Source: Clostridium sp.
GTDB taxonomy: Bacteria; Bacteroidota; Bacteroidia; Bacteroidales; Bacteroidaceae
Direction: 5' to 3'
Length of the DNA: 64,000 bases
Assembly: GCA_023663705.1 (NCBI GenBank)
Contig: JAMPGY010000015.1
Location: 1-64,000, forward strand
Made by a program: the position numbers and the translations under genes
The notes under the pieces: model-generated
The model's input: only the letters and a program-made list of their open reading frames with translations
Told to the model about the DNA's origin: nothing
The model's database searches: none
Shown: piece by piece, positions 23,344 through 64,000 of the stretch
Layout of the letters: each line of letters starts with the position of its first letter
Numbering within the stretch: position 1 is the stretch's first letter

Positions 23344-24744
23344 ATGGATATATTCTTAATTAAAGCTTTTCAACTGATACTCTCTCTCTCCATTTTGGTG
23401 GTGCTGCACGAGGGCGGTCATTTCCTCTTTTCCAAACTCTTCAAAGTGAGGGTGGAGAAGTTCTACTTGTTCTTTGATCCTTGGTTCCACCTGTTCAGTA
23501 CCAAAGACAAATGGTTCACCCGTCTGTTTCCCCGTTTCCGCGACAAGGAGACGGAATACGGTATCGGATGGCTACCTTTCGGCGGTTACGTGAAGATTGC
23601 AGGGATGATAGACGAGAGCATGGACACCGAGCAACTCAGGAAGCCGGCCCAGAAGTGGGAGTTCCGTTCCAAACCGGCTTGGCAGCGTCTGTTCATTATG
23701 ATAGGCGGTGTGCTGGTCAATTTCCTTCTGGCATTGGTTATTTATTCGGCTGTACTCTTCACATGGGGAGAACAGTACATACCGATGAAACGTATGTATA
23801 TGGGTTTCAATTTCAACCAGGAAGCTCAGGCTATAGGGTTTCGCGACGGTGACGTGCTGATTTCGGCAGATGGAGTGCCTTTCCAGCAGTTTGACGGAAA
23901 TGTGTATCGCACGCTGTCCGAGGCAAACACTGTGACAGTGAAGCGTAACAGACGTTATGTGAATATCAACATGCCGGAAGAGATGGATATGTTGCAGATG
24001 ATTCGTCAGTATCCTGCTTTTCTGGTTCCCCGTGTACCCTCAGTTGTGGATTCTGTGCTGGTGGGCACACCTGCTTATGAGGCCGGTCTGCGATCGGGAT
24101 GCAAGATCAATGCTATTGATGGCCAACCGATATATTATTGGAGTGATTTCGACAATCTGATGTCGCGCAAGGCAGATATGTTGTCTGCCGGTTGCAGTCA
24201 CGCGGACAGCGTGCGTCTGCGCACCATGACAGTTGCCTATACGGCTCAGTCTCATCTTCAGCCCGATACGGTGGAAGTGCAGCTTACGGAGGATTACCGG
24301 TTGGGGATTGTAAAGCGTTCGTTGCTTCATTACTACAAACCTATTCAGGTGGAGTACGGTTTGCTGGAGAGCATCCCCGCCGGCGTGAGCCATGGAGTGG
24401 CGGTGTTGAGCGGTTATGTGAGTGATTTGAAATACCTCTTCACCTCTGACGGAGTGAAGAGTGTGGGTAGTTTCGGTACTATAGGAAGCATCTTTCCGGC
24501 TACATGGAATTGGCAGGCTTTCTGGGAGATAACGGCATTCCTCAGCATTATGCTTGCTTTCATGAACATTTTGCCCATACCGGCTTTGGATGGTGGGCAT
24601 GTGCTGTTCTTGTTGGCAGAGATTATCATGCGCCGTCCGCCCAGTGACAAGTTTTTGGAGCGTGCCCAGATGGTGGGTATGGTGTTGCTGATTTCGCTGA
24701 TGCTCCTGGCTTGTTATAACGATATCGTACGTTTTTTGTTTTAA
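23344..24744 (+). CDS. rseP: RseP-type site-2 intramembrane zinc protease
   Basis: 466 residues. First membrane helix carries the zinc motif HEGGH (22-26); the third zinc ligand is in NILPIPALDGGH (about 407-418) inside a C-terminal membrane helix. Between them are PDZ-like periplasmic segments (GFRDGDVLISADG, GLRSGCKINAIDGQPI). Site-2 proteases cut anti-sigma factors already shortened by a site-1 protease. The window also encodes two sigma/anti-sigma pairs and a PrsW candidate site-1 protease, making this a plausible partner. Last gene of the operon, followed by a hairpin. Confidence 0.95.
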   Translation: MDIFLIKAFQLILSLSILVVLHEGGHFLFSKLFKVRVEKFYLFFDPWFHLFSTKDKWFTRLFPRFRDKETEYGIGWLPFGGYVKIAGMIDESMDTEQLRKPAQKWEFRSKPAWQRLFIMIGGVLVNFLLALVIYSAVLFTWGEQYIPMKRMYMGFNFNQEAQAIGFRDGDVLISADGVPFQQFDGNVYRTLSEANTVTVKRNRRYVNINMPEEMDMLQMIRQYPAFLVPRVPSVVDSVLVGTPAYEAGLRSGCKINAIDGQPIYYWSDFDNLMSRKADMLSAGCSHADSVRLRTMTVAYTAQSHLQPDTVEVQLTEDYRLGIVKRSLLHYYKPIQVEYGLLESIPAGVSHGVAVLSGYVSDLKYLFTSDGVKSVGSFGTIGSIFPATWNWQAFWEITAFLSIMLAFMNILPIPALDGGHVLFLLAEIIMRRPPSDKFLERAQMVGMVLLISLMLLACYNDIVRFLF

Positions 24745-34407: not shown

Positions 34408-35652
34408 CTACAGTCCTCCGTCCAGCATCCAGATGCCCTGGTTGTTGTCTCGTCTTAGGGCGATGTGTCTTTCGCGGGTATTCCCGTCGGGATGTGTCAG
34501 ACGGAAGAAGACGTACACGCCGGGGTAGTTAGGTAGGGATCTCGGTTGGCTGAACGATGAGACAGTGCAACCGTCGAACGTGTTCATGATCCGGTCGAGA
34601 TTGGGCCGGTAGAAGTATAGGGCTTCGGCGGCCTGTTCGGGCTGGTGGTGAATCAGTGCGTTCAGTATGCGTTCGGCCGCCTGTGTGGCGGTTTCTTTCT
34701 GCAGTGCGCGGGCGCGCTTCTTGTCCACAGAGGGTCCTTCGGCTTCCAGTCGTGCGACCACTTGTCGGGGAACATGCAGGATGTCCTCCTTGGTCAGGGC
34801 CACATTGTAGCGGCATTCCGTACTGCGCAGTACGAGCATCATCTTGCCCTTGTGCTCTTTCCACACCCGCATACTCAGCAGCAGGTTGGTTGTGCGGGAG
34901 AAAACGTTCTCGATGCGGTGACGCACATCTTTTCCTTTCAGATCCCTGATGATGCCTTCGGAGGTTATGATGACAGTGGAGTCTGTTTCTTCCATGCTTG
35001 TCTGTTTGTTGTCGGAATGTTCGATAAATACTGTTTGCCGATTAAACAGGTTGTCGGGGTGTAGCCATCCGTCCAGAAAGCCCACATTCTTGTTGCTACT
35101 CACAGTGAGACTGTTGTCCATCCATAGGAATTGTTTGTTCCCGTCGAATAAGGCCGTGCGTCCGCTCTCTTTCTCCATGCGCCAGAACAAGGAGTCGTCC
35201 TGATGCATGACGCTCAGACGCATCCTCATGAACGGCATTGTGGCATCCAGGGTACCGAATCCTTCGTAGGGCGAACTGCGGATGTCAAAGTCCACCACGT
35301 AGTTGCCCACGTTGGATAGCTGACGGGCGGCGTTCGAGAGGAATTCGTTTCGGGTTGTCTCCGCATAGGTGGATGTGGAGAATAGGTTACTTAGCCCGGT
35401 CATCACTCCGCACAGGAAGACGAACAAGACTGCGGCGGCCGACGTGAGACGACGGAGGACGGGGGAGTGTCGCACCTTGTTCCGCAGGGGAAATGAAATT
35501 TGCATGCGTTCGGCAGTGGCAAGCATTTCACGGGCATACCGCTCGCACTCCGGGCAGTGTTTCATGTGTTCTCGACATTCGGGAGAGAACCGGACATCCT
35601 GTCCGGTGCCAAACTCATCGATAATGGCGTTTTTGAATTCTTCACAGGTCAT
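34408..35652 (-). CDS. zinc-type anti-sigma factor with periplasmic LolA/MucB-like domain
   Basis: 414 residues. The N-terminal cytoplasmic part carries a ZAS motif His29-x3-Cys33-x2-Cys36. One membrane helix (about 70-90) is followed by a large beta-rich outer part (NYVVDFDIRSSPYEGFGTLDA...) resembling LolA/MucB or DUF2092 domains, which sense lipids or lipoproteins in other systems. It follows the ECF sigma gene by 38 nt and presumably holds that sigma at the membrane until a signal is received. Confidence 0.78.
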   Translation of the reverse strand: MTCEEFKNAIIDEFGTGQDVRFSPECREHMKHCPECERYAREMLATAERMQISFPLRNKVRHSPVLRRLTSAAAVLFVFLCGVMTGLSNLFSTSTYAETTRNEFLSNAARQLSNVGNYVVDFDIRSSPYEGFGTLDATMPFMRMRLSVMHQDDSLFWRMEKESGRTALFDGNKQFLWMDNSLTVSSNKNVGFLDGWLHPDNLFNRQTVFIEHSDNKQTSMEETDSTVIITSEGIIRDLKGKDVRHRIENVFSRTTNLLLSMRVWKEHKGKMMLVLRSTECRYNVALTKEDILHVPRQVVARLEAEGPSVDKKRARALQKETATQAAERILNALIHHQPEQAAEALYFYRPNLDRIMNTFDGCTVSSFSQPRSLPNYPGVYVFFRLTHPDGNTRERHIALRRDNNQGIWMLDGGL

Positions 35653-35690
35653 GATAATACATATATTTAAGGTGAGTGAATAAATATCGG

Positions 35691-36206
35691 TTAGACGGAT
35701 GTTTTGCGGAACATGTTGTTTCTTAGTTTCTCCATGCCATATCGGAAGCGTGATTTCACCGTGGGTAGCGGTGTGTGGAGCAGTGTGCTGATTTCTGAAA
35801 AACTTTTCTCTCCATAAAAACGCAGGCGGATGACTTCGGCCTGTTCCGGTGGCAGAGTGGACAATAGGTGCTGTATGTACAACAGTTCCTGTTCACGGTC
35901 GGGTGGAGTTTCGTCGCAGAGATGTATCCACTGTTCGGCCGGTTGCGTGTGGGGCGGATACCGGCGCAGTCGATCGGTGCATAGATTGTGTAGGCTTCGG
36001 TACAGGTAGCCCACGATGTTTTTCGGTTGTTCTCCGGAAGAGCGGTTGTGAAGTTGTATGAACAGGTCCTGTACGGCATCCTCCGCATCTTCCCGGTTGC
36101 CCAGCATACTACAGGCGTAGCGCAATAGTTTTGTATGTTCCCGGACGATTACTTTCGAAAGTCGGAGTTCGTTTGTTTTTCTTCGTATTAGCGAGAATAT
36201 AGTCAT
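35691..36206 (-). CDS. ECF-type RNA polymerase sigma factor
   Basis: 171 residues. Region 2: HTKLLRYACSMLGNREDAEDAVQDLFIQLH with the typical DAEDAVQD core recognition helix. Region 4: LPPEQAEVIRLRFYGEKSFSEISTLL followed by the HTH helix TVKSRFRYGMEKLR. It directs polymerase to its own regulon; the adjacent zinc-type protein is its probable anti-sigma factor. An earlier Met (residue 1) versus later starts cannot be decided. Confidence 0.9.
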   Translation of the reverse strand: MTIFSLIRRKTNELRLSKVIVREHTKLLRYACSMLGNREDAEDAVQDLFIQLHNRSSGEQPKNIVGYLYRSLHNLCTDRLRRYPPHTQPAEQWIHLCDETPPDREQELLYIQHLLSTLPPEQAEVIRLRFYGEKSFSEISTLLHTPLPTVKSRFRYGMEKLRNNMFRKTSV

Positions 36207-55880: not shown

Positions 55881-55979
55881 ATGGAATCAAACGAAATATA
55901 CAAGGTGATACTTGACCAACGGGAGGAGCTGCCCTTCTTGGTGGAGGACTTTAGATTGCAAACGTTAATAAACTTGTGA
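55881..55979 (+). pseudogene. truncated N-terminus of an AAA ATPase-like protein
   Basis: A 32-residue frame (MESNEIYKVILDQREELP...TLINL) whose first 20 residues look like the start of Bacteroidales solitary ATPases, before the P-loop, and then ends. It has its own -7 box and repeat array, so it is a real promoter with an amputated gene rather than random sequence. A second TTACTTTTGC box follows at about 55998 with nothing readable after it, suggesting deletion or rearrangement. Confidence 0.5.
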
Positions 55980-56052
55980 GATTCAGAGAAATTTATTACT
56001 TTTGCACTTGAACCATAGCGGTTGCTCATGCAGAGGCCTGTCCCTTCCAATT

Positions 56053-56424
56053 TCAAAAGACATCCTGATACCTAAAGTTTATTTCTCCATCGTTATTCAC
56101 GGTACATTGAAGCTGGTCGGGCGTGTTAACTAATTCATCAATATATTGTTTTACTGCAGTGTTCCCAATAATAACATCTTCATCAGTAAGATTGAGTGAG
56201 ATGTCTTGTATTTGTTTGCGATCGCTCTGTGCTTCTCCGCCACCGCTGACATAATGTAAAAAATGATAGACTTTCTCTTCCGGCACTTCATCTTTGATTA
56301 TATAGCTGACGGAAATATGGCTGGAAATACCGAATGAGTCGAAGTGAAGTCGTTTGCTCCAATATCTGTTGCGCGGTGTGCTGCTGTTTTCCGTATTGTC
56401 ATTATTCGTTTCATTTTTCCCCAT
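56053..56424 (-). CDS. hypothetical protein, unrecognised
   Basis: 123 residues. An Asn/Thr-rich N-terminus (about 1-20) is followed by a compact alternating strand/helix region (HFDSFGISSHISVSYIIKDEV, QDISLNLTDEDVIIGNTAV) and ends in YQDVF. No signal peptide, membrane segment or motif. It stands alone: the nearest genes are 70 nt away (truncated ATPase, opposite strand) and 350 nt away. Flanked by repeat structures on both sides. Coding is plausible but not certain. Confidence 0.5.
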   Translation of the reverse strand: MGKNETNNDNTENSSTPRNRYWSKRLHFDSFGISSHISVSYIIKDEVPEEKVYHFLHYVSGGGEAQSDRKQIQDISLNLTDEDVIIGNTAVKQYIDELVNTPDQLQCTVNNDGEINFRYQDVF

Positions 56425-56442
56425 TCAGATATTTATGGCATT

Positions 56443-56577
56443 CTGCCGTACGCATACTGAAGCCCCTTATTTACGTATACTGAAGCCTCTTATTTACGTC
56501 TGTTGAAGCTCCTTATTTACGTGTACTGAAGCTCTTTGATTACGTCTGCTGAAGTACCTCATGTATGCGTACGGCAG
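56443..56577. repeat. five 23-nt tandem units enclosed by a 13-nt perfect inverted repeat
   Basis: CTGCCGTACGCAT (56443-56455) and ATGCGTACGGCAG (56565-56577) are perfect inverted copies. Between them, starting at 56456, 56479, 56502, 56525 and 56548, are five units of exactly 23 nt with the shared core CTGAAG...CTTATTTACGT; the fifth runs into the right inverted repeat. The repeat length is not a multiple of three, so this is not a coding repeat. It resembles an iteron array or a miniature element. Confidence 0.9.
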
Positions 56578-56728
56578 ACCGGTAAGTTCGTGCCGCGCAT
56601 AGGCGGAAGTGGCTTGGAAGGAGAAACAGGCGACCCGGCAAGAAAAATAGGGAAATATAAAAAGGGGAAAACTTGCACGGTGTCGCCTGTGTAGACCTTC
56701 TGAACAAGTGTTCTATGTCCCTTAATGC

Positions 56729-56768
56729 AAAAAGAGGGAAGAAAGTAACCTTGTCATCCCTCTTTTTT
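56729..56768 (-). terminator. terminator of the DUF6057-to-anti-sigma operon
   Basis: AAAAAGAGGGA (56729-56739) pairs with TCCCTCTTTTT (56757-56767), 12 nt after the anti-sigma stop on the minus strand. Minus-strand U tract present; T run on the plus strand too, so it may be bidirectional. Confidence 0.8.
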
Positions 56769-56779
56769 TCTGAAAAAAA

Positions 56780-57508
56780 TCATTTCCACTTCCGGTAGAG
56801 CGAATCTGCCTGACCTTTGTAGATGCCTTCCGTCCGGCGTATCTGGTCGAGGCATTCCAACGCTTCCTTTTTCCGGCCGAGTCCGCCCAGGGCGTGTGCC
56901 TTGAGCCACAGCAGTTCCTCGCTGTCTTTTTTCCGGCTGGCTCCTTGTGCCTGCATCCGGACGGGACGGGTGTCGGGCTGCTGGGGGATGGACTGGTTGC
57001 AGGGGGGGATGCGCTCTTCCTGCTCAATCAGTTTCAGCGCTTGTTTGTATTGTTTTTTGTGAATGAGTTCCGCGATGTTGGCGATGGCTTTCCTGCCTCG
57101 GTAGTTCTCGTAGTGGCTCAGGTTTATCATATTGGCCATGGGTAGTTTGCGTGCCATGGGCATGAACAGAAAGATGCCGACGGCAAGCATGGCGGCGAAG
57201 CCGATGAGGCCGATGATGCGTGGCAGCAGCTTGTGTGTTGTTCTTCGGGTTTGCCCTGGGGGGATGCACTGTCCGGTAGAAACGGTGCCTGTTGCTACGG
57301 TTGTCTGCCGCATATCTCTATCCCATTTCTTCATGAGCCTGAGTTTCTCCTCCCGGCTGGTCAGCGCAGTTCTCACCATGCGGGTAAACTCCAGCTGTTC
57401 TTTCAGTCCGGCATCCTTCTGTACCTGTCGTTCAAAGTCATTTCGCTCTTCCGCGTTCATTTCATCGCGCAGGAAGCGGTCTATTCTATCTTGCAGTTGT
57501 TCGTTCAT
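56780..57508 (-). CDS. anti-sigma-factor-like single-pass membrane protein with TPR-like tail
   Basis: 242 residues. Residues 1-65 (MNEQLQDRIDRFLRDEMNAEERNDFE) match the cytoplasmic start of Bacteroidota anti-sigma-like proteins; one membrane helix spans about 97-118; the periplasmic part carries helical TPR-like repeats (LIHKKQYKQALKLIEQEE and LWLKAHALGGLGRKKEALECL) separated by a Pro/Gln-rich linker. It follows the sigma gene by 12 nt and ends the operon. The PrsW gene two positions upstream suggests that this protein is its substrate. Confidence 0.72.
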   Translation of the reverse strand: MNEQLQDRIDRFLRDEMNAEERNDFERQVQKDAGLKEQLEFTRMVRTALTSREEKLRLMKKWDRDMRQTTVATGTVSTGQCIPPGQTRRTTHKLLPRIIGLIGFAAMLAVGIFLFMPMARKLPMANMINLSHYENYRGRKAIANIAELIHKKQYKQALKLIEQEERIPPCNQSIPQQPDTRPVRMQAQGASRKKDSEELLWLKAHALGGLGRKKEALECLDQIRRTEGIYKGQADSLYRKWK

Positions 57509-57520
57509 AGTGGGATGTGT

Positions 57521-58177
57521 TTATTCTTCCTTGCGTAGGTTATAGAGTGTGGTCACCGAGGTCTTCAACAGGTTCAGACAACGGTTTTTATTGGACTTCA
57601 GCGCGTCCTTGCTTTTGTATGTAGGGAGTTCGGAGAGCATGATGTCCAGTCGCTTGTTTTCGTAGTAAAACTTGGTCAGTATCTGCCGGCATCTTTCCTG
57701 CATTACGGCCACGCAGTCCGATATGGTTTCCAGCATGTCCGGTTCGGTATCTTCGTTCGTCCATACCTGAGGGCCGGTTGCCTCCGGATGTTCCGTGCCG
57801 TTATCTGTGGGGCAATCGTTCAGTCCGGGTTCCCGTTTGGTGGTGCGCACCCATTCTCTGTATTTCAGTTTGCCTATGCCCATCATGTAGGTGAGCAGCG
57901 AACCTTGGAAGGGTTTGTCATCGCGCCCGATCAGTATGCCGTCCCTTACGCGGATTCGACCTCGTTCGATGTTCTCCCACAGCGTGATATAAGTGTTGTG
58001 GAAGATATCTTGTTTGTCGTGGTCGGAAGCAAAGAACACACCTCGGTAGTGTGTGTCGAAATAGGTCTTGCAATAGATGTAGAAATCCCGTTGCACGATG
58101 GGATTCCGCCGTGCCACTCCCTCCACATAGGCCGTATCGGAATACGAAGCCGGGCGCAGTTTGATTGTTTGAGCCAT
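57521..58177 (-). CDS. ECF-like sigma-70 family protein
   Basis: 218 residues. Region 2 is visible at about 30-75 (QRDFYIYCKTYFDTHYRG, DKQDIFHNTYITLWENIERG); a spacer with acidic linker follows; region 4 (CRQILTKFYYENKRLDIMLSEL, YKSKDALKSNKNRCL) is about 155-205. It belongs to the divergent Bacteroidales ECF group. Sits directly between PrsW (21 nt upstream) and its probable anti-sigma (12 nt downstream). Confidence 0.78.
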   Translation of the reverse strand: MAQTIKLRPASYSDTAYVEGVARRNPIVQRDFYIYCKTYFDTHYRGVFFASDHDKQDIFHNTYITLWENIERGRIRVRDGILIGRDDKPFQGSLLTYMMGIGKLKYREWVRTTKREPGLNDCPTDNGTEHPEATGPQVWTNEDTEPDMLETISDCVAVMQERCRQILTKFYYENKRLDIMLSELPTYKSKDALKSNKNRCLNLLKTSVTTLYNLRKEE

Positions 58178-58198
58178 AATACAGGGTGGATAAATCGT

Positions 58199-58954
58199 TT
58201 ATCGTGAATCAACCGGCGACTCCGTCTCCGTGTGCAGGACGCCGTCGCCGTCCATCCGTTGCTTGTCCATGTTGAGCAGCGTGTGGATGCGCCGGCGGCC
58301 GTACTTCCAGTTGTAACGACACACGAGCAGGAAGAGGACAAAGGCGGGTAGCGCCCATCCGGGAGAGACGTTCATGGAAAACAGACCGAAGTCGAAGGCA
58401 CCGTGCAGGAGGATGGGGACAAGGAGTGCCAGCGTGAGGTTGTGCGCCTTGTGGGCGGGATTGCCGAACACGGCCAGCGAATAGTAGAACCCCGTGAATA
58501 CGTTGAAGAAGAAGTGGCCCGGCACACTGAGCAATGCCCGTGTGAGGGCGATGGAGGCCAGGTTGTCGATGTTGCCCAGCATGTAGAGCACATTCTCCAC
58601 TCCGGCAAATCCCATGCTCACGCAGCAGGCATAGACGACGCCGTCCATATGCTCGTCGAAAAACGGGTTGCGGCGTACGAGCAACCAGAAGAAGAGCAGT
58701 TTCATGCACTCCTCCGGTATGGAGGCCACCACAAAAGCGTTGTAGGCACTGTTCAGCAGAGTGCTGTTCTCCGGCTGAGGCAACAACATCTCGATGACTA
58801 TGGCGGCGACGGCAGACAGCATACCGTAGCGGAAAGCCTTGAAAATCCATTGCCAGGGCTCGCGTTGGTATTTGTCTCTCCAGTAGATGAATGCCACGAG
58901 AAGCACGGCGGGCAGCATGCCGATGAGGATGGCGGGAAGGATGTAGTCGTCCAT
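58199..58954 (-). CDS. prsW: PrsW family intramembrane metalloprotease
   Basis: 251 residues with about seven membrane helices. PrsW motifs are all present: E81-E82-x-x-K85 (PEECMK), FAGVEN with Glu120, His147 in GHFFFN and H184-GAFD188. In Bacillus subtilis PrsW makes the first cut in the anti-sigma factor RsiW. Here it lies in one operon with a sigma factor and a single-pass membrane protein, so the same job is likely. A C-terminal charged tail follows the last helix. Confidence 0.87.
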   Translation of the reverse strand: MDDYILPAILIGMLPAVLLVAFIYWRDKYQREPWQWIFKAFRYGMLSAVAAIVIEMLLPQPENSTLLNSAYNAFVVASIPEECMKLLFFWLLVRRNPFFDEHMDGVVYACCVSMGFAGVENVLYMLGNIDNLASIALTRALLSVPGHFFFNVFTGFYYSLAVFGNPAHKAHNLTLALLVPILLHGAFDFGLFSMNVSPGWALPAFVLFLLVCRYNWKYGRRRIHTLLNMDKQRMDGDGVLHTETESPVDSR

Positions 58955-58996
58955 AGGGCTTGTGAGAATGCGGTTTCCTGTTTTTGTGAATGGAGA

Positions 58997-60496
58997 TTAT
59001 TGCCTGGCGCTACGGTAACCGGCCCGGCGTGCCGGCCGGCCGATGACGGAGGCCAGCTCCTGTGGCGACAGGGTGACGGATCCGGTCATGAACTCGGGTA
59101 TGTTGTAGCTGCGCAGGAACTGACGGTGGTAGACGGGATTGTCCTGCGGAAGTTCAAACGGTTTGCGTCCGCGTCCATCCTTGTCTATATAGGCGATGAA
59201 GGGGCGGGTGTAGTTGCCGTCGTTCCGCCGGCTGCTGAACACCACCCATCGGCCGTTGGTGCTCCACGAATGGTAGCTCTCCACGTCGGGTGAGTTGATT
59301 TCCGTCATCGGCCGTGCCTCGCCCGATTGCAGATCCATCATCCACAGGTCGGCGTCCTTGTGCCAGATGTGGAACACGCCGTAGGCTCCCCGGGTGAACA
59401 TCAGGAAGCGTCCGTCGGGAGATATGCGCGGCAGGGTGGCACTTTGTCCGGCCGATGCGGCATCATAGACCAATTCCTCGGGGCCGAATGTGCGGGTCGT
59501 GGCATCGAACGTGCGGCTGTAGAGGTTGTACTTTATCTGCTGATAGTTGATCATCAGTTCGTAGTCGGGATGTTCGGGGTGCTCGATGTGTACGCGTGCC
59601 GAACAATAATACAGGCGTTTGCCGTCGGGGCTCCAGGTGGGGAAGCACTCCATGGCATCGGGTTCGGAGGATACGGTGCTCACTTCGTTGCGTTCCACGT
59701 CGTAGAGGATGAGATCGCTCTTGGAGTCCTGCACCTCCACCTTCTGCGGATCGCGTGTGTGGAAAGCCTGGCCCGTGATGTTGGTGGAGTAGGCGATGAG
59801 GGGCAGGGTGGGGTGCCAGGCCGGATACACGCCGGCCGACAGGGTGGAGTCTGTCTTCAGATCAATCTTCTCCACTTTACCGTCTCGGGCGATGACGGTT
59901 CCGCCCAGATAGCTGCGCACGTGGAACTGCATCCGTTGAGGGTTTCCGCCTTGATAAGCGTGGCAGTTGATACATTGACCGTCCTGTTCGTTGGTGTGTT
60001 GCATGTTGGAGTAGATCACCTTCTCCGTATAGTCGGTGAGACAGCGCTGGTTGATGGTCAGATCTTCGTAGGTGACGTAGGACGGGGCGATGAGGCGGTA
60101 GGACAGATAGGGGTCTATCTCCTCCCCGGCCACCTGCAGGGTGAAGGGATTGTCGTGCATCCATCGGCCTTCTTTCTCGTAGTAGATATCCACGGTGACC
60201 GTTTTGCCGCGTGCGGCAGTCATCAGCCGTTTCCAGTCGGATGCGGAGGGGCATACGTCTGCTCCGCCCACCACCAGTTCCTCGCCTTCGCAGGCAAAAC
60301 GGGTGACAAATTGTCCGGCCGCCTGTTCGATGCGGAAATGCAACGGGGCGATGTTGGGTGGAATGGTCACATCGGTATATTCGGGATAGATGTGTGCCTG
60401 TCGCTGTGTGTCGGTGTAGTCGCCGGGGACATTGGGGCGGCAGGCTACGAGCGTCAGGATGGCATAGCAGAGTGTGTATAGGATGGATTTTCTCAT
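58997..60496 (-). CDS. TolB-like beta-propeller lipoprotein with a CxxCH motif
   Basis: 499 residues. Lipobox LVAC with Cys19, a beta-sandwich-like first part, then C175-INC-H179-A, a c-type haem attachment motif, followed by PD40/TolB propeller blades (HPTLPLIAYSTN, FPTWSPDGKRLYYCSA, LPRISPDGRFLMFTR, YHSWSTNGRWVVFSS). It could sense or carry electrons at the outer membrane, with the propeller binding a ligand or partner. Starts 4 nt after the DUF6057 stop, so is coupled to it; 42 nt before PrsW. Confidence 0.82.
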   Translation of the reverse strand: MRKSILYTLCYAILTLVACRPNVPGDYTDTQRQAHIYPEYTDVTIPPNIAPLHFRIEQAAGQFVTRFACEGEELVVGGADVCPSASDWKRLMTAARGKTVTVDIYYEKEGRWMHDNPFTLQVAGEEIDPYLSYRLIAPSYVTYEDLTINQRCLTDYTEKVIYSNMQHTNEQDGQCINCHAYQGGNPQRMQFHVRSYLGGTVIARDGKVEKIDLKTDSTLSAGVYPAWHPTLPLIAYSTNITGQAFHTRDPQKVEVQDSKSDLILYDVERNEVSTVSSEPDAMECFPTWSPDGKRLYYCSARVHIEHPEHPDYELMINYQQIKYNLYSRTFDATTRTFGPEELVYDAASAGQSATLPRISPDGRFLMFTRGAYGVFHIWHKDADLWMMDLQSGEARPMTEINSPDVESYHSWSTNGRWVVFSSRRNDGNYTRPFIAYIDKDGRGRKPFELPQDNPVYHRQFLRSYNIPEFMTGSVTLSPQELASVIGRPARRAGYRSARQ

Positions 60497-60500
60497 GAGC

Positions 60501-62366
60501 TTAATACGTTTTTACGTTTCTGACGAGGAAGTAGTAATAATAAAAGGTGTGGCCAAACTGCGGATAAAGCACTTGGGCCAGCTGGTCTTCCGACATTCCG
60601 GCGCATTGGCGCGTGCGCTCCATCATCTGTTCATAGTTGCGGACCACCTCCTCATCGAAGGGCATCTGACTGATGTCCACCTTGTTCTCCAGATGGCCAT
60701 AGAGGTAGGCCGCCTCTTGGAAGTGGGTGGGCATGTGGGCGTCGTTTTTGTGTTGTTCGGCATAGCGGAAGAAATGCTCCCAGAACAGGTCGATGTTTTT
60801 CAGTACGAGAGCCGATAAAACCGATTGTTCCTCAAACAGAGGTTCGTCCCTGAAGCTCTTGGCAAAACTGTTCATCAGATACAGTTCCATGACGGAGTTG
60901 TCGCTGTCCAGATTGTTGTTGAAGCACATCAGTCGGACGATGGGACCCAGTTCGGCATCCTTGGCCATGCGTTCCGGATGATGGAGGAATGTGCGGTAGT
61001 GCGCGGCCCATTCCTTGTGAAAAAGAGTCTGTCCGAGCAGGTCCAGATACTTGCGGGCAACCTCCCACTCGTGGTTGAGCAACGAGGTCTTGGCCATGAA
61101 CTTGATGGCTTCCACGTTCCATCCCATCTCCACGCAGTCCTCCATGCACCAGCGGTAGCAGAAGTTGGCTTTGCCGTAGTGGAAATAGATCTGTTTGGCG
61201 TTCACCTGAGTCTGTTTCACCGTGAACGGAGCATCGGGAATACAGCTCCCGTCGCGGAAGCGGAACATCTCGTCGCCGGCCCGTCCCAAACGGAAGAGCG
61301 CGAGGTTTTTGTTCATCACCTGCGGGCGTGTGGGTGTTTCGTTGCAGTGGCGTGCGATGTCCACCACTTGTTCCCAATCCAGTTCCTCTGTGGCGCGATA
61401 CATGCGCAGTTCACGGCCGAAGTTGGCATTGTTGTAGCGAAAGTGAAGCACGAAGGCCCCCAGCACGCCTAACACGACCATTTGCAACACAACGAGTTGC
61501 CACTTGCGCAACAGCGGCCTGGCATCATAGACAGTCAGGCAGAGCAGGGGAGAAAGGGCAAGGAGCATGTAGGGGATGCGGTAGTGGTAGAATGTCTCTG
61601 TGCCCACGCTGAAGCAGGGCAGGGCGGCCCGATAGATATAGTCGATGCCCGTCTGGTCGTAGAAGCGGTAGGCCACGAGCGGTACGGCCACTGTGAGCAG
61701 TGCGCCGGCCAGGAGCGTGACCAGCCGCCCGAACCGCCTGTCGGCGGGCAGGCGCAGGGAGAGCAACATCATGCAGGCCGTCCCCACAAACGAGTAGGCG
61801 CCCAGCAGCGGGTAGCCCGTGCAGGCCCACACGGTCAGCCAGGACAGGCGAAGGCCGTGGCGGGACGGCAGGGCGCGGTAGACCCATGCCCCCAGCAAGG
61901 CAAGCAGGAAGCCCAGCGTGGGCACGAATAGATGACCCGGCAACTTGCAATAGAACAAGAAGTAGCCCGTCTCGAGAATAGCGCTCAGCAGGGCGCACGG
62001 TGCAACGAGCAGGAGCACCGACCAGCGCCGGGGCGTGCGGAACACCCGGGCGGACACCAGCATGATAGCAGCCCAAAGAAGCAAAAGCACAGACACTCCG
62101 AGCCCTGGATAGTAGAACAATTGGGTGAGAAAACAGGCTGCCCACGATAGAGTGCCGCCAGGATAGACGGCTAATGTGTCGTAGTAGAGCCGCGTGGGCA
62201 GGAACAGGTTTTGTTCCTGTGCCCGATGGAGAAAGTCGCTGCCGTAGCCGGACAGCAACAGCCATCCGCCGGCCGTTGCCATCAGCAGGATGATAACGAT
62301 GGGGAGAAGCTTTACAAGGTGTATGGGGAACTTTCCCGAAGGATTGTCTTTCTTTAGTTTATTCAT
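60501..62366 (-). CDS. DUF6057 family membrane protein
   Basis: 621 residues from ATG 62364-62366; the frame is open further upstream but crosses a -7 box at 62408-62416. The first half has about ten membrane helices (VKLLPIVIILLMATAGGWLLL onward); the second half is a long periplasmic or cytosolic helical domain (TEELDWEQVVDIARHCNETP, KYLDLLGQTLFHKEWAAHYR) resembling TPRs. First gene of the operon that ends in the sigma/anti-sigma pair. Function unknown. Confidence 0.75.
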   Translation of the reverse strand: MNKLKKDNPSGKFPIHLVKLLPIVIILLMATAGGWLLLSGYGSDFLHRAQEQNLFLPTRLYYDTLAVYPGGTLSWAACFLTQLFYYPGLGVSVLLLLWAAIMLVSARVFRTPRRWSVLLLVAPCALLSAILETGYFLFYCKLPGHLFVPTLGFLLALLGAWVYRALPSRHGLRLSWLTVWACTGYPLLGAYSFVGTACMMLLSLRLPADRRFGRLVTLLAGALLTVAVPLVAYRFYDQTGIDYIYRAALPCFSVGTETFYHYRIPYMLLALSPLLCLTVYDARPLLRKWQLVVLQMVVLGVLGAFVLHFRYNNANFGRELRMYRATEELDWEQVVDIARHCNETPTRPQVMNKNLALFRLGRAGDEMFRFRDGSCIPDAPFTVKQTQVNAKQIYFHYGKANFCYRWCMEDCVEMGWNVEAIKFMAKTSLLNHEWEVARKYLDLLGQTLFHKEWAAHYRTFLHHPERMAKDAELGPIVRLMCFNNNLDSDNSVMELYLMNSFAKSFRDEPLFEEQSVLSALVLKNIDLFWEHFFRYAEQHKNDAHMPTHFQEAAYLYGHLENKVDISQMPFDEEVVRNYEQMMERTRQCAGMSEDQLAQVLYPQFGHTFYYYYFLVRNVKTY

Positions 62367-62407
62367 ACTTTGCAAGATTTCGTGCAATAACAACTTGTGT
62401 TTGCCTT

Positions 62408-62416
62408 GCAAAATTA
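62408..62416 (-). promoter_or_regulatory. -7 box of the DUF6057 operon
   Basis: Minus-strand TAATTTTGC, 42 nt before the preferred ATG at 62366. Confidence 0.5.
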
Positions 62417-62488
62417 CAAAATCTATACAGATTAAACTTTTTTTAGGCCAAAAACTTTCTTCACAGGGGGATAATGCAGTAAAAATAT

Positions 62489-62497
62489 TATCTTTGC
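62489..62497 (+). promoter_or_regulatory. -7 box of the beta-galactosidase gene
   Basis: Plus-strand TATCTTTGC, perfect consensus, about 105 nt before the first ATG at 62602. Confidence 0.6.
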
Positions 62498-62574
62498 AGG
62501 GCAGTCGGGAACACACGCTGCCGTGTAGAAAGCACGAAGCAAAACACAAAGAGGACAAACTATTATTTTATTAA

Positions 62575-64000
<1,426 letters not shown>

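Follow-up and report, generated by a model that had tools for sequence, protein, structure and literature searches.

A PrsW, ECF sigma and one-helix protein gene triad in Paraprevotella as a candidate protease-controlled sigma switch with an apparently exchangeable protease gene

The window analysed here is a stretch of 64,000 nucleotides (positions 1 to 64,000 of contig JAMPGY010000015.1, assembly GCA_023663705.1) in which five genes lie together on the minus strand, from 60501-62366 down to 56780-57508. It comes from a gut member of the Bacteroidales, whose genus we take to be Paraprevotella. In gene order they encode a DUF6057 membrane protein (60501-62366; PF19529, 303.9 bits), a PD40-propeller lipoprotein with a CINCH motif at residues 175-179 (58997-60496), a PrsW-type intramembrane protease of 251 aa (58199-58954), a divergent extracytoplasmic function (ECF) sigma factor of 218 aa (57521-58177) and a likely anti-sigma factor with one transmembrane (TM) helix (56780-57508). 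The intergenic gaps are 4, 42, 21 and 12 nt, and a terminator-like hairpin on the same strand closes the series at about 56729-56767 (-19 kcal/mol, z -3.37), although it is absent from the output of a simple terminator scan. In these respects the layout agrees with a first-pass annotation made from the DNA alone. Gene calls come from a simple in-house caller and some starts are unsure. Downstream of the hairpin lies a 123-aa gene without a Pfam match (56053-56424, minus strand).

About 42 nt upstream of the DUF6057 gene stands TAATTTTG (62409-62416, minus strand), a housekeeping-type box; no TTTG was found at the usual spacing before it, and promoters of the sigma-70 type were no more frequent in the region than expected (4 found, 3.8 expected). 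None of the five genes matched a PADLOC model, and a defence system was rejected as an explanation of the locus. Elsewhere in the window an RseP-like site-2 protease is encoded, as the first-pass annotation had stated (23344-24744, plus strand; PF02163, 165 bits, together with a PDZ domain). The window also holds a second ECF sigma gene (35691-36107, minus strand; Sigma70_r4 48.1 bits, r2 31.9 bits), which is followed within 34408-36107 by a 414-aa gene that has no Pfam match and an N-terminal end resembling a zinc anti-sigma factor by eye.

The protease is a clear member of PF13367, with a score of 124.9 bits where the cut-off is 23.5, and it carries the Glu81/Glu82 pair that had been read from its translation; its 144.3 bits fall below the 225-bit cut-off of the NCBI equivalog model NF033739. 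The residues E81, E82, H147 and H184 are kept here and are invariant in all 25 sigma-linked PrsW proteins compared. The Glu-Glu and His residues are presumably catalytic.

The product of the neighbouring sigma-like gene matched no Pfam sigma model, so that sigma-70 regions are not called above cut-off by sequence models, and among NCBIfam models the best match was weak and under cut-off (TIGR02989, E 2.3e-4). Its relatives match weakly as well: in an alignment of 13 members including the window protein, 8 match Sigma70_r4_2 and 6 match Sigma70_r2 at E up to 0.1. The AlphaFold model resembles two-domain ECF sigmas, in which a linker connects the folds of regions 2 and 4, and the alignment profile reaches SigW among solved structures (E 0.015). 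On this modelling, the product of 57521-58177 is a divergent ECF sigma factor.

A gene for a one-TM protein directly behind a sigma gene is the usual layout of membrane anti-sigma factors, and the last gene of the window locus has both the single helix and the adjacency. Its product comprises a helical N-terminal part (residues 3-72), a TM helix at about 97-119 and a TPR-like C-terminal tail, for which TPR rows were returned (VIA); the structural model has a pLDDT of 78 and is low around the TM helix. The protein has no Pfam anti-sigma match, and the alignment profile of the family, run against solved structures, returned TPR parts of SRP72 (E 5e-4) with no anti-sigma factor among the matches listed. 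Among 83 rows, made up of the window and the best 80 of 84 named loci, 76 have a one-TM protein encoded directly after the sigma gene. Of the 25 PrsW-linked loci, 22 have a called TM gene in this place; in L188 it could be read in raw frames, and in L240 and L250 it was not called.

The DUF6057 gene and the lipoprotein gene behave as a pair of their own. In the 30 best-scoring lipoprotein loci of a longer list, viewed with 1.5 kb flanks and including the window, DUF6057 lies directly upstream of the lipoprotein in 29 and a CxxCH motif is present in 29, the odd locus in each case being a split gene call. Downstream of the lipoprotein, the same loci hold an S9 peptidase in 12 cases, another gene in 16, the end of the locus in one and PrsW in one, the window; the same-genus relatives among them (L059-L062, L067 and L068) have the S9 peptidase in 6 of 6. 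Among 151 genomes of the family, matches at E up to 1e-3 numbered 110 for DUF6057 and 110 for the lipoprotein, 36 for PrsW, 19 for the sigma factor and 6 for the TM protein. Because the pair and the S9 gene occur in relatives together with neither PrsW nor the sigma and TM genes, as in L181 and L182 over the 15 kb viewed, the pair is an older and separate module, and the triad of PrsW, sigma and TM genes occupies the place that the S9 gene has in relatives. The S9 gene of L182 is of the DPP IV type (Pfam, 167 and 148 bits), and both loci have a GH2-like neighbour that resembles the window's by eye.

Apart from the window, the complete five-gene order was seen in L183 alone, from another Paraprevotella genome (L183 and L279, G291:C42, are counted as one record); it is not kept across Bacteroidales. 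L183 has gaps of 2, 43, 25 and 12 nt, and its five proteins are 58-77 percent identical to those of the window, from which it follows that the arrangement has persisted in both species. Conversely, triads occur in relatives without DUF6057 beside them. Counting the window, 25 sigma genes are linked to PrsW, and no DUF6057-lipoprotein pair was seen alongside 23 of them, some of these loci ending near the triad. A TAnnTTTG box precedes DUF6057 in L183 and likewise in L181 and L182, which have no sigma gene. The triad would have come to lie next to the older module in Paraprevotella. We also considered the lipoprotein as a haem sensor for the sigma factor, as the CxxCH motif is conserved and the genome has a cytochrome c assembly gene (116 bits), but both go with the DUF6057 pair and the candidate was rejected. 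No paper on DUF6057 was found in the open-access literature searched.

What recurs is the triad, and within it the protease gene varies. A pattern-based scan of named Bacteroidales genomes with the sigma alignment gave 84 confirmed loci, the best 80 of which contain 82 sigma genes. The gene directly upstream on the same strand is caspase-like in 38 cases, prsW in 24 and of another kind in 13; in 5 cases the upstream gene lies on the opposite strand, and 2 sigma genes stand at a contig end. The linkage of PrsW to a divergent ECF sigma factor and its one-TM partner, noticed first in the window, is therefore a repeated one; PrsW is nonetheless missing from most related sigma loci, and because a caspase-like protease so often fills its slot, the logic of protease, sigma and inhibitor appears to be kept. 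The two proteases were found together within six genes in none of 63 loci, a count in which the window row is unlabelled, the window's own neighbours including no caspase. The His and Cys motifs looked for are present in most of the caspase-like slot genes (35 of 38), and 29 of 38 have a hydrophobic N-terminal end, as would be expected of exported enzymes. The caspase of L127 scores 63.9 bits against PF00656 and matches PADLOC model PDLC02987, with a TPR-CHAT protein encoded further downstream. Of 18 genomes within the genus, five carry the sigma gene, two beside prsW and three beside a caspase-like gene. A caspase partner hidden elsewhere in the genome was sought and rejected: the one C14 gene found (G000:C4) is accompanied by no sigma gene within the 3.7 kb inspected, and G291 has no such gene. 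In the large clade described below, L242 included, a frequent downstream neighbour of the triad is a gene of about 900 aa that looks glycosidase-like by eye.

On a tree of 81 sigma factors, which left out two second copies (L213 and L248), the PrsW label needs three changes, all three forced by starred branches, against a mean of 21.6 for shuffled labels. A single clade of PrsW-linked sigmas was rejected (AU p 9.8e-7 with 25 rows, 3.8e-9 without L188). These sigmas fall into a 22-locus clade drawn mostly from rumen and hindgut genomes, the pair formed by the window and L183, and L188 on a long branch. The window and L183 sigmas group with that of L184 (Candidatus Paraprevotella stercoravium; support 100/96), which is linked to a caspase. 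Since the PrsW-linked sigmas do not form one clade and the window sigma is placed with this caspase-linked one from the same genus, the protease slot appears, on these sequences, to have switched between a caspase-like enzyme and PrsW; the three changes may represent one gain and two losses. The upstream protease gene would then be exchangeable, with the caspase-like enzyme in the largest share of relatives and PrsW in two or three lineages. On the PrsW tree the sigma-linked proteins lie in three places and starred branches force one change, so that this tree alone may be compatible with one origin.

Most PrsW proteins of the family have no such sigma neighbour, and PrsW therefore has other contexts. 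Of 37 PrsW places in the 151 genomes, the sigma gene is a direct neighbour in two, the window and G227:C10; 33 of the others were viewed and 2 lay outside the view, and the gene caller missed PrsW in L151. Genes resembling RyR-domain proteins adjoin PrsW in L150, L152, L155, L166 and L188, as identified by Pfam in L155 and L188 and by eye in the rest. At L155 (3805-5482) and L166 (5445-6927), one of them from the same genus, a sigma-like gene (by eye) is followed by the RyR-domain protein and then by PrsW; this protein has an N-terminal end that looks anti-sigma-like by eye and a weakly C39-like middle. In L188 the RyR gene, which the in-house caller had mislabelled as PrsW, lies directly upstream of PrsW.

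The one-TM proteins differ with the protease beside them. When proteins longer than 300 aa or without a clear TM helix are excluded, the tail after the helix has a median of 43.5 aa in PrsW-linked proteins (n=22) versus 123 aa in caspase-linked ones (n=36), and many PrsW-linked proteins measure only 106-137 aa in all. The window and L183 proteins keep long tails of 126 and 139 aa, from which we infer a more recent change to PrsW in this pair. In 20 PrsW-linked proteins (excluding those over 300 aa, under 80 aa or without a clear TM helix, as well as the window, L183 and L188) conservation is 0.65 in the TM helix and 0.62 just before it versus 0.19 in the tail, with 0.65 for the sigma factor. 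Conservation of the helix is suggestive of a role for PrsW and is no proof of one, because one caspase-linked class shows the same (0.53 for both TM helix and sigma); the other class does not. A motif before the TM helix was tried as a shared signature and rejected: its strict form occurs in 24 of 36 caspase-linked, 2 of 22 PrsW-linked and 7 of 18 other TM proteins, and a looser form in 0 of 20 where 2.2 were expected.

Our preferred reading, to which we assign a probability of about 0.68, is that the PrsW, sigma and one-TM genes of the window form a protease-controlled sigma switch in which cleavage by PrsW and then by a site-2 protease releases the ECF sigma. The first-pass annotation had gone further and joined all five genes into one system, in which DUF6057 and the haem-type lipoprotein sense the signal and set off PrsW. 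The common strand, the similar gaps in the window and L183 and the identity of their proteins speak for such a unit. The genes, gaps and terminator are real, yet the pair stands without sigma genes elsewhere, most PrsW-linked sigma genes stand without the pair, and the box before DUF6057 is shared with sigma-less loci; we regard the pair as a quite unlikely sensing half of the switch.

PrsW may instead be a passenger that is co-expressed with the sigma pair but acts on other membrane proteins, the anti-sigma being controlled by another protease or by a ligand at its TPR-like tail. This agrees with the many PrsWs of the family in other contexts and with the length of the window tail, which resembles those of caspase-linked relatives. 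It fits poorly with the spread of PrsW-linked sigmas over more than one lineage and with the position of PrsW in the very slot that a caspase occupies in relatives, and we judge it unlikely. That the one-TM protein anchors the sigma at the membrane or activates it, rather than inhibiting it, would suit the missing anti-sigma family match and the small size of many PrsW-linked members; given its regular place directly behind the sigma gene, we find this very unlikely.

In the protease-controlled switch that we favour, the one-TM protein would bind the ECF sigma and hold it at the inner membrane. Envelope disturbance would lead PrsW to make a first cut at or near the TM helix of this putative anti-sigma, the general site-2 protease RseP, encoded elsewhere in the window, would be the candidate for the second, and the freed sigma would turn on its targets.

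A lead to such targets comes from the large PrsW clade. Of its 22 triads, 18 have TTACTTTG upstream of PrsW, versus none of 89 other upstream regions in the same loci, whereas TAnnTTTG boxes occur in 2 of the 22 and 49 of the 89; shared descent of the 22 triad upstreams may be the source of the element. It was not found in the window (55901-62700, minus strand) or, by eye, in two upstream stretches of L183. The pattern TTTG-N19..21-TTACTTTG has 32 sites (30 of them with loci) in seven genomes with the sigma gene versus 16 for the reversed pattern, and 21 versus 30 in seven same-genus genomes in which no sigma was found. PrsW lies beside the sigma gene in six of the seven genomes that have it, the seventh, G416, being outside the view. 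Sites precede secG in 6 of 7 sigma genomes versus 0 of 7 without, and a helix-turn-helix (HTH) gene in 5 of 7 versus 0 of 7; sites before adk-, acpP- and BlaI-like genes (named by eye) are present in both sets. The secG of L314 scores 66.8 bits against PF03840 and the HTH gene of L318 53.8 bits against PF01381. These two genes are possible further targets, as a lead only, and the sigma genomes may be just a clade.

A broader proposal can be put forward only tentatively, as somewhat doubtful. An exported caspase-like enzyme and PrsW would be equivalent in function, each making the first cut in a one-TM anti-sigma, and one would have replaced the other in different lineages; in the larger PrsW clade the anti-sigma would have lost its folded outer domain and kept the conserved TM helix, and the sigma would drive its own triad, secG and the HTH regulator through TTTG-N20-TTACTTTG.

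Among the systems closest to the window triad are Bacteroidales operons of a caspase (C14), sigma, TM and TPR/CHAT genes. Their gene order is the same and their sigma is homologous, with identities of up to 51 percent (L184); one class also has a homologue of the TM protein, at up to 39 percent identity. The window differs in having PrsW in the caspase's place and no TPR/CHAT gene after the triad. In Bacillus subtilis prsW lies apart from the sigma gene, whereas the window prsW is directly upstream of it. The window TM protein, moreover, lacks a zinc anti-sigma match, and the window PrsW scores under the NCBI equivalog cut-off. With the SigW-RsiW-PrsW-RasP cascade of B. subtilis, in which RsiW is described as cut by the site-1 protease PrsW and then by the site-2 protease RasP, the window shares an ECF sigma, a one-TM partner, PrsW and a site-2 protease (PMC10202637, PMC3498285). 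Proteases are likewise linked to ECF sigmas in ECF54, for which control by proteolysis has been predicted (PMC8999054), and in the type III-E Csx29/Csx30/CASP-sigma system, where a TPR-CHAT protease is reported to cut a sigma inhibitor (PMC10028731); those are not membrane PrsW systems, and the window triad has no adjoining CRISPR gene. Other neighbourhoods of caspases and ECF sigmas are on record (PMC8195603). In the titles and abstract openings of the open-access literature, most subscription papers being outside its scope, no PrsW-controlled sigma factor of Bacteroidota was found.

If the triad is read correctly, it would represent a new form of regulated intramembrane proteolysis, based on a sigma module that swaps its protease, and would bring a PrsW-controlled sigma factor to the Bacteroidota. 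The caspases of the Bacteroidales operons would then be site-1 proteases for gene switches, with PrsW as a functional substitute, and these bacterial caspases would gain a testable job.
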